Below, in pieces: positions 59,335 through 61,650 of a stretch of DNA of 64,000 nt. Numbering within the stretch: the stretch's first letter is position 1; each line of letters opens with the position of its first letter. Origin of the DNA: Oscillatoria salina IIICB1 (lineage in GTDB: Bacteria; Cyanobacteriota; Cyanobacteriia; Cyanobacteriales; SIO1D9); assembly GCF_020144665.1 (NCBI RefSeq), contig NZ_JAAHBQ010000007.1, forward strand, positions 1-64,000. Direction: 5' to 3'. Under the pieces are notes generated by a model. It saw only the letters and a program-made list of their open reading frames with translations. It did no database searches and was not told the origin of the DNA. A program made the position numbers and the translations under genes.

Positions 59335-59700
59335 GTGTTTCTAAGACTCGCACAGCAGCACCGTCAATTTGTCAAGGATTTGGTAATGAATCTTCAAGCT
59401 CTAGCAACTGTCTTGGAGAATAGGGGCTATCTGGCTTCTTGCTATACCTGTGGCAGCCAAATGAATAGTGCATCGTTCATGGTTAGTTTAGGCGATAATC
59501 ATTTAATTCGCTTTTTAGTGTCAGATTATGGTATTACCTGGACTGAAATGCGCGATGACCGAGAATTGATGAAATTGGAAGGGGCTGAAGCAATTAGTCA
59601 ACTTCAGGATTTAGCGAACCTAGTTAAGTATCATATAGAACCTTCGCCATCAGGTCGAGAACAATCCAAAGCAAGTGTCAGGCAAATGCACGTCTCTTAA
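59335..59700 (+). CDS. DUF1815 family protein
   Basis: This 121-residue protein matches DUF1815, a conserved cyanobacterial family of unknown function. The typical stretch is FLRLAQQHRQFVKDLVMNLQ, then RGYLASCYTCGSQMNSASFM and GDNHLIRFLVSDYGITWTEM. The last 20 residues are variable. The start is a GTG, fixed by GGAGG at 59324-59328, 6 nt upstream. The protein is soluble. A hairpin (CCCTAGAC and GTCTAGGG, 59763-59794) in the spacer downstream, followed by TTTGCTCTT, is a candidate weak terminator. Confidence 0.88.
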   Translation: MFLRLAQQHRQFVKDLVMNLQALATVLENRGYLASCYTCGSQMNSASFMVSLGDNHLIRFLVSDYGITWTEMRDDRELMKLEGAEAISQLQDLANLVKYHIEPSPSGREQSKASVRQMHVS

Positions 59701-59979
59701 GTAGTTTTCTAGAGGAGCGAAACAGAGATTACCAATGCCCAAACTCGCAATCTTACTATCTGCCCTAGACAAGGAAATTATTCTGAGTCTAGGGTTTGCT
59801 CTTGGGTAAGACTGTTGCTGTGGCTGTGAGGGAGATTTAGAGAGGGCGATCGCCTTTCTCTTGCCAAATTACTTAACTTATGTATATGAGTATTTACAAA
59901 AGTTCTTAAAAAGAAAATAAAGAAAATATTATGAAATCAAACTTTGCTCTCATTTCAAGAGATGATAATTAAAGTTCAA

Positions 59980-60132
59980 AGGGAGTCAGCCCAGATAAAG
60001 ACCCTCAATAGATAAAACCAAATCAAATTTAAATAGGGTCAGCCCCAATAAAGACCCTAACCACAATAAACCAAACTTATAACTAACAGAGTGCCAGCCT
60101 CTAACCAAAAGAGAACTGGCACTCTCATTTTT
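59980..60132 (+). ncRNA. Candidate small RNA: two repeated hairpins plus terminator
   Basis: Two similar hairpins stand in tandem: 59980-60005, with AGGG(A)GTC and GACCCT, and 60035-60058, with AGGGTC and GACCCT around AGCCCCAATAAA. The shared loop bases TCAGCCC and ATAAAGACCCT show duplication. Downstream, AGAGTGCCAG (60088-60097) pairs with CTGGCACTCT (60116-60125), with an inner CTCT/AGAG pair, and is followed by CATTTTT: an intrinsic terminator reading rightward. No rightward gene ends here except DUF1815, 390 bp upstream. A small RNA is the simplest reading; a long DUF1815 3' UTR is the alternative. Confidence 0.45.
60088..60132 (+). terminator. Rho-independent terminator
   Basis: A 10-bp perfect stem (AGAGTGCCAG) with an inner 4-bp pair, followed by CATTTTTC. 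It reads rightward, facing the convergent pdhA gene, whose stop is at 60193. Confidence 0.8.
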
Positions 60133-60192: not shown

Positions 60193-61227
60193 CTATTCAT
60201 CCTCAGCAAAAATAAAGCGACGCAGTTCGCTAGGATCGGGTTCGGGGCTATTTTCAGCAAATTCCACCGCCTCATTAACCAGTTGTTGAACTTTACGCTC
60301 AATTTCCTTAAGTTCCGCCGAATCTGCCAAATTTTGTTCAGTTAAGTAAGCAGCAAACTTTTGAATGGGATCGCGAGCTTTCCAAGTTTGTTTTTCTTCT
60401 GGAGAGCGTAACTCATCAGGATCGGCGAGAGAGTGACCCCGGAAACGATAAGTAAGAGCTTCAATCAAAGTCGGACCTTCACCAGCACGAGCGCGGGCGA
60501 TCGCCTCTTGAGCCGCAGCCCGAACCGCGAGGACATCCATCCCATCAACCTCAACCCCAGCCATACCAAAGACGCTAGCCTTTTTATAAATCTCAGGTTG
60601 AGAAGTAGCACGTTCGTGAGCCATCCCAATTGCCCACTTATTATTTTCCACCACATACAGAATCGGCAACTTCCACAGCGCCGCCATATTCAAGCATTCA
60701 AAAAACTGACCATTATTACTGGCGCCATCGCCAAAAAAGCAAGCAGTCACCTGGTCAGCACTTTCATCTCCCATCACCTCTCTGCGATACTTACTTTGGA
60801 AAGCAGCACCAGTAGCCACGGGAATACCTTCTGCCACAAAAGCATAACCTCCGAGTAAACGATGTTCGGCAGAAAACATATGCATCGAACCACCGCGACC
60901 TTTGCTGCATCCAGTCGCCTTACCAAACAACTCCGCCATTACCTCTCTCGCTGGAACCCCACAACTAAGAGCATGAACGTGGTCGCGATAGGTACTAGAC
61001 ACAAAATCTTCATCAGGGCGCATCGCCTTAATCACCCCAGTAGAAACAGCCTCCTGACCGTTATAAAGATGGACAAAACCGAACATTTTGCCTCGGTAGT
61101 ACATTTCAGCACATTTGTCCTCAAAAAACCGCCCCAGAATCATATCCTCATAGAGAACTAAGCCTTCTTCAGAAGATATTTGGGCTGAAGTAGCGTGAAA
61201 CTCAGGTAAAGTGCGTTCGGAAACCAT
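60193..61227 (-). CDS. pdhA: Pyruvate dehydrogenase E1 component, alpha subunit
   Basis: PdhA with its beta partner decarboxylates pyruvate using thiamine diphosphate to feed acetyl-CoA synthesis. The 344-residue protein starts [20 protein letters not shown] at ATG 61227, with AAGGA about 13 nt upstream; the open frame upstream to 61362 is read-through into an IS remnant. The TPP motif is [20 protein letters not shown] ending in [11 protein letters not shown], and [16 protein letters not shown] carries the phospho-loop-like end. The beta-subunit gene is not adjacent, as is usual in cyanobacteria. A tnpB remnant ends 20 bp before the start codon. Confidence 0.95.
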
Positions 61228-61247
61228 AGCTTCTGTAGAATCCTTAA

Positions 61248-61650
61248 TCAAATATATTCGTAAACAACCTCGCCAATTAGGGTCGAGGCTTTCAGTAGCC
61301 CTGGAGTCATCGTACAAGACAACAACTGCGAACCTCCAGGCTGGTTGAAAGAACAGCCCCAAAGCGCAATTACTAATGAAGCATTAACATCCGCATCCCC
61401 TTGATCTTGACATCGAGGATTTGTACACCGGAAAGATTTTCCAGCTCTAATGCCTGAATGCAAGCATTTATGGCACGTTTGACTAGTATAAGCGGGAGGG
61501 ATAGCAATTACTTCCACTCCTTCTTTGATTCCCTTGTACTCTAAGAACGTCCGCAATTGAGAAAAAGCCCAGGAATTAGACCGTTTGAGATCGCAACTGT
61601 TGTTTCTCGTCGGCTTGTAGCTTGACAACTAAGGTTAATACTTGTTTCAT
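61248..61650 (-). pseudogene. tnpB remnant abutting pdhA
   Basis: The N-terminus of an IS200/IS605-family TnpB, MKQVLTLVVKLQADEKQQL, begins at ATG 61650. It is joined, after loss of about 250 residues and a frameshift, to the C-terminal part: [60 protein letters not shown] with the zinc-finger cysteines and the last RuvC Asp, then [11 protein letters not shown]. The other catalytic residues are gone, so it is inactive. The remnant ends 20 bp before the pdhA start. Several stops do not occur in the C-terminal frame, so the decay is recent or the fragment is constrained. Confidence 0.85.

Follow-up and report, generated by a model that had tools for sequence, protein, structure and literature searches.

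A predicted small-RNA gene of Oscillatoria salina with a conserved hairpin and its own promoter and terminator belongs to a widespread cyanobacterial family

The window analysed here is a 64,000-nucleotide stretch of Oscillatoria salina IIICB1 (assembly GCF_020144665.1, contig NZ_JAAHBQ010000007.1, positions 1 to 64,000 of the forward strand), in which positions 59913-60132 hold a promoter, then a pair of related hairpins and lastly an intrinsic terminator. Taken as a whole, this locus is probably best explained as one of two host copies of a free-standing small-RNA gene that belongs to a cyanobacteria-wide family. The predicted RNA occupies 59974-60132 on the plus strand (about 159 nt, with its start placed by promoter spacing), and the second copy, which brings the total in the host genome to two, was located by DNA search with a 191-base query. 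Both neighbouring genes lie outside the RNA: upstream a gene for a DUF1815 protein (59335-59700, plus strand; Pfam PF08844, E 1.2e-53), and on the other side a convergent gene for pyruvate dehydrogenase E1 alpha (pdhA; 60193-61362, minus strand; Pfam PF00676, E 6.3e-89), the 5' end of which is uncertain. The original prediction, made from the letters of the window, had placed a small RNA at 59980-60132, 390 bp beyond the end of the only rightward gene. The hairpins and the terminator do lie in that interval, but the gene begins further left, with the promoter element at 59913. The rightward gene does end earlier, and the 390 bp fits the distance from its stop (59700) to the terminator (388 bp), whereas hairpin 1 is only 280 bp away.

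The upstream element (59913-59936, plus strand; alignment columns 10-33) consists of two copies of the 11-bp direct repeat AAWTATWANGAAA, seen in the family alignment as a period of 11 between columns 10-22 and 21-33. It is followed by an extended -10 of the form TGNSANNNT, for which the window has GATGAT or GATAAT in the -10 region at 59955-59969 (plus strand); the A and T four bases apart are invariant in 55 of 55 full-length matches. From the conserved promoter spacing, transcription is predicted to start at about 59974, inside the interval of 59700-59980 where the original prediction had required a start. Allowing at most one mismatch, the repeat-plus--10 pattern has exactly two sites in the 5.96-Mb host genome, both at the gene copies, compared with one match for a control pattern. 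Given that 11-bp direct repeats are typical of OmpR/PhoB-family response regulators, we assign the putative regulator to this type, and the RNA family is probably under a dedicated regulator of that kind. The pho box also has an 11-bp spacing. It is nevertheless rejected as the site, as the base after the second TTA is free (A in 17/55), and so is membership of the PhoB regulon, with three TTAA at 11-bp spacing in none of 149 promoters and two in 12; the literature describes the pho box as three tandem repeats with a TTAA core. The RpaB regulon (HLR1, two (G/T)TTACA repeats at 10-bp spacing) was discarded with 0/149 promoters, and NtcA control as in NsiR4 with the box GTA-N8-TAC in a single promoter of 149.

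Hairpin 1 (59981-60006, plus strand; arms 59981-59987 and 60000-60006) has six pairs, one A.C mismatch and the loop AGCCCAGAUAAA, and reaches -4.5 kcal/mol alone. Hairpin 2 (60034-60059, plus strand; arms 60034-60040 and 60053-60059) has seven perfect pairs around the 12-nt loop AGCCCCAAUAAA at -8.9 kcal/mol, and the two loops have the same ends. The intrinsic terminator (60088-60132, plus strand) comprises a hairpin at 60088-60125 with a 10-bp outer stem (-20.1 kcal/mol) and the T-rich tail CATTTTT up to 60132; a consensus terminator scan missed it, probably because of the scan's 8-base loop limit. The fold of 59980-60132 reaches -35.1 kcal/mol against -18.0 +/- 2.95 for shuffled sequences (z -5.8; none of 200 shuffles equal), which together with conservation rules out chance hairpins. 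A model of promoter plus hairpin (R1) matches the window copy at 59904-60014 (88.5 bits, E 4.1e-11), and a hairpin-only model (R2) matches at 59974-60014 (hairpin 1) and at 60027-60067 (hairpin 2, E 9.3e-9). The strong rightward terminator of the original prediction is thus confirmed, and its two tandem hairpins are both at the place claimed, but the best fold does not form both of them. The 5' arm of hairpin 2 can capture the 3' arm of hairpin 1 instead, and a fold with both hairpins in tandem (-34.6 kcal/mol) lies just short of the best (-35.1). Within the whole predicted RNA, hairpin 2 forms at a probability of about 0.75, while the weak hairpin 1 may give up its 3' arm to this competing pairing.

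The family appears to be present in about half of the sampled cyanobacterial genomes. The 191-base DNA search gave matches in 29 of 60 relatives' genomes, host included, and R1 found 105 of 386 genomes of a phylum sample (281 without a match). R1 also matched all five genomes tested from a Synechocystis-like genus, none of them with an E above 2.2e-5. With R2, 50 of the 60 relatives matched at E 0.1 and 183 of 388 genomes of the class at E 0.001 (205 without a match); R2 misses some R1-positive genomes (e.g., G035 and G136), so that its counts are lower bounds. In the host, R2 finds three hairpins, all inside the two genes, and a mobile repeat was rejected on this count. A pattern scan of named genomes returned at least 117 stretches, and 77 of the 80 listed titles are cyanobacteria, the others being Moraxella, Clostridium and one title with a Gracilibacteria label but a cyanobacterial-looking locus. 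This contig with the label Candidatus Gracilibacteria (L055) has the RNA gene beside yqeG and is probably a misbinned cyanobacterial one. Among relatives the common order is an A/T-rich element, the promoter, a stem GGGGUC...GACCCU with the loop AGC...UAAA in one or two hairpins, and usually a terminator. In genus g97 many genomes have two R2 matches, spaced by about 350 bp wherever both positions are given; at the one such locus examined (L199:2524-2633 and 2870-2979), two complete RNA genes stand in tandem and both have a promoter of their own. In seven loci (L031, L081, L083, L093, L109, L120 and L191) the promoter element and the hairpin are further apart than elsewhere, and these loci are perhaps a second paralogue type in heterocystous strains.

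For alignment, 93 of 139 selected loci were left after near-duplicate removal; L032, L033, L114 and L118 (other phyla or without the promoter element) were excluded, L001 was added in its own register, 20 further loci were excluded for odd spacing or register, and the remaining 73 were thinned to 38, of which 36 (without L063 and L117) form alignment A1. A later set of 54 loci was chosen by hand, and alignment A3 holds 45 of 62 distinct hairpins, with other lengths and some near-duplicates omitted. The Synechocystis-like loci L185, L187 and L205 fall outside the pattern used for the terminator, neighbour, linker and loop/promoter-motif counts.

The seven-pair stem is 99.2% paired in 36 sequences, and its closing pair, which lies outside the selection pattern, is UA in 26, CG in 8, AU in 1 and GC in 1. 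Across 64 model matches 98.2% of cells pair and six of the seven pairs have changed on both sides, with 40 double-change cells against 7.2 +/- 2.1 in shuffled data (0/500 shuffles had as many); sliding the partner by one to three columns reduced pairing to 22.8-53.2%. At one locus (L181 of genome G089) two inner pairs have changed together, to GGGGCG...CGCCCU. The stem is thus conserved, as the original prediction needed it to be, and its view of the order repeat-repeat-terminator as a small RNA gains support from the conserved promoter, the compensatory stem and the terminator alike. A small protein was rejected, given that the ATG before the stem is lost when the closing pair is not U-first (23 of 55 full-length rows). 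By its sequence the locus also has two of the features expected of a trans-encoded small RNA, namely a promoter and terminator of its own, as judged from the promoter element, the varying neighbours and terminators in 111 of 147 family members (mean 3.0 in mononucleotide shuffles), and a conserved secondary structure. The terminator stem often keeps GCGCCAG...CTGGCGC across distant genomes, beyond plain terminator needs.

Comparative sequence evidence supports a gene with a dedicated promoter, a 5' hairpin module (one or two copies with the 12-nt loop AGC-N5-UAAA) and an intrinsic terminator, set in changing neighbourhoods. In the mechanism that we propose, its extended -10 promoter would be switched by an OmpR/PhoB-type response regulator, bound to the 11-bp direct repeat some 40-60 bp ahead of the start. 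The transcript would then act in trans through the shape of its hairpin, which would most likely be read by an RNA-binding protein; the RNA would sequester or deliver this protein in the manner of CsrB/RsmZ decoys, but with another partner than theirs. For this acting step we consider the chances evenly balanced.

Whether the gene stands alone can be judged from its surroundings, for which a simple open-frame rule served to call the neighbouring genes. Among 149 instances, the gene that follows shares the strand of the RNA in 78, is convergent in 65 and was not seen in 6, and hence we regard the RNA gene as free-standing. If the RNA were a leader or attenuator, be it of proB or of some other gene downstream, this would fit the commonest setting, yqeG - RNA - proB in one direction (37/149, including the host's second copy), but the convergent genes, one of them at the window copy, and the occurrence of the same module beside proB, pdhA, SLH-protein and other genes make this very improbable. 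The other neighbours include SLH-domain genes that face the RNA, and the pdhA neighbour recurs in two relatives, one of which also has DUF1815 on the other side while the contig of the second is cut short. There is even less to be said for a mere terminator of the upstream DUF1815 gene accompanied by chance hairpins, a reading we practically dismiss in view of the conservation: the intrinsic terminator is present, but there are also the promoter element and, in the class at large, compensatory changes in the stem, and the upstream stop is 388 bp away. It is also unlikely that the RNA has been described before from cyanobacteria under another name, with IsaR1 of Synechocystis as the foremost candidate, even though IsaR1 (68 nt, with a Fur-controlled promoter, start 3164320 in strain 6803) is described as conserved, and NC-181, probably an earlier name of it, as having possible homologs in widely different cyanobacteria. 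In two Synechocystis-like genomes the present RNA follows the presumed slr0361-slr0362 pair, and its predicted length in a Synechocystis-like genome is about 84 nt. IsaR1 lies near cmpA (slr0040) by interpolated transcript-unit numbers, while in three Synechocystis-like genomes some 160-480 kb separate the RNA from the likely cmp operon. By position the RNA seems distinct from IsaR1. PsrR1 is located at fabF-hoxH and has published oligos that fail to match, and NsiR4 is NtcA-controlled, whereas the NtcA box is nearly absent from the family promoters.

How the RNA would act is a closer matter. In the loop, AGC and UAAA are constant while the middle five bases vary, even within one RNA, and in consequence the loops TCAGCCC of the original prediction are not supported, in that form, as pairing sites; their TC are stem bases. 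In 22 two-hairpin genes with both loops 12 nt long, the two loops of a gene always share AGC, the UA at positions 9-10 and the base at position 12 (22/22), and they share position 11 in 21/22, whereas the five middle positions agree in 4 to 7 of the 22; the pattern used for this comparison demanded UA.A, so that only the AGC agreement and the middle variability are free of selection. Given that the loop ends are constant, the middle varies and the stem keeps pairing rather than letters, we favour recognition of a shape, by a protein or through loop-loop contact, over one contiguous antisense seed. A classical antisense small RNA, in which an unpaired loop, leader or linker pairs with the ribosome-binding regions of target mRNAs, is plausible, if short of an even bet. 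Pairing is the usual mode of trans-encoded small RNAs, and the UUCAAA leader is conserved, as is the linker in a subgroup; but the unpaired runs that stay constant are, even at their longest, short or A/U-rich, the two hairpins of one RNA differ in the middle of their loops, and the compensatory changes speak against conservation of the G-rich arm as a fixed seed. Several points weigh against our reading of a free-standing RNA recognised by shape. Base pairing is the way in which most of the bacterial small RNAs studied so far act, and a subgroup of the single-hairpin members also conserves its linker (about CCYGTGAATACCTGNGTA), which could be an antisense seed; because of this subgroup, antisense action stands close behind shape recognition. 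Hairpin 1 is imperfect in the window copy. The sets were selected by a pattern that fixes most of the core, so that counts on matches lean towards structure; the double changes are not explained by such structure-based selection. Lastly, transcription, regulator and target are all things that we infer from sequence.

No Rfam 15 family matches anywhere in the window, and in permissive Rfam scans of 651 bases here and of 17 relatives' loci nothing reaches the gathering score; the matches to sn2524, MIR1886, mir-1954 and mir-H1 are far below thresholds and were set aside as chance. Of the papers returned by literature searches with sequence strings, none is by its listing on a cyanobacterial small RNA, and searches by neighbouring gene names and by feature words were no more productive; a table of the Nodularia genome paper has no small RNA at the corresponding position. 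Newness is claimed here as absence from Rfam only and not from print, and supplementary tables may well list such an RNA unnamed. The comparison literature comprised PMC4734099, PMC6202907, PMC11126600, PMC5386190, PMC2662882, PMC6091082, PMC12090762, PMC6753628, PMC11221513, PMC9196836, PMC3516471, PMC7336809, PMC6508509, PMC3610870 and PMC7020235. The RNA resembles PsrR1 (SyR1), IsaR1 and NsiR4 in being short, free-standing, under its own, putatively environmentally regulated promoter and conserved in many cyanobacteria, but differs from them in place and, as far as tested (PsrR1 oligos, NtcA box), in sequence. PsrR1/SyR1 was rejected with best oligo matches of 12/22 and 13/24 in five loci, whose neighbours are yqeG-like and others instead of fabF-hoxH. 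The Yfr2 family is likewise widely distributed, is present more than once per genome and has a stem that bears a conserved loop, but it has another conserved motif, and its oligos match the present loci at no more than 15/27; Yfr1 was rejected because its ACTCCTCACAC core occurs in 0/149. NsiR1 likewise has repeated units, but the present family has one or two hairpins within one RNA, and occurs in other strains too. CsrB/RsmZ are decoys whose GGA loops bind CsrA. Like the present RNA, they repeat a hairpin whose loop letters persist as the stem varies, but the present RNA lacks a GGA loop (its loop is AGC-N5-UAAA) and has one or two hairpins only. CsrA is an unlikely partner, given that the Voss paper found cyanobacteria to have no RsmA/RsmE homologs.

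Small RNAs with conservation across the cyanobacteria are few, and several of them (PsrR1, IsaR1 and NsiR4) control central functions. The present family stands out by its strong structural conservation, by an operator that is unique to the gene copies in the host (at most one mismatch) and by having no Rfam entry. A more far-reaching and doubtful interpretation, which we offer tentatively, is a phylum-wide decoy or guide RNA read by a protein new to such RNAs, with the gene as a near-exclusive target of the response regulator of the 11-bp repeat; if true, this would be a whole branch of cyanobacterial signalling not yet described. Presence in compact genomes such as the Synechocystis-like ones makes deletion and target mapping simple.

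Beyond the convergent neighbour, a 126-aa frame at 61248-61628 (minus strand) overlaps the 5' end of the pdhA frame and has a Cas12f1-like TNB domain (PF07282, E 1.3e-19); the domain marks it as the C-terminal part of a transposon protein of the TnpB type.
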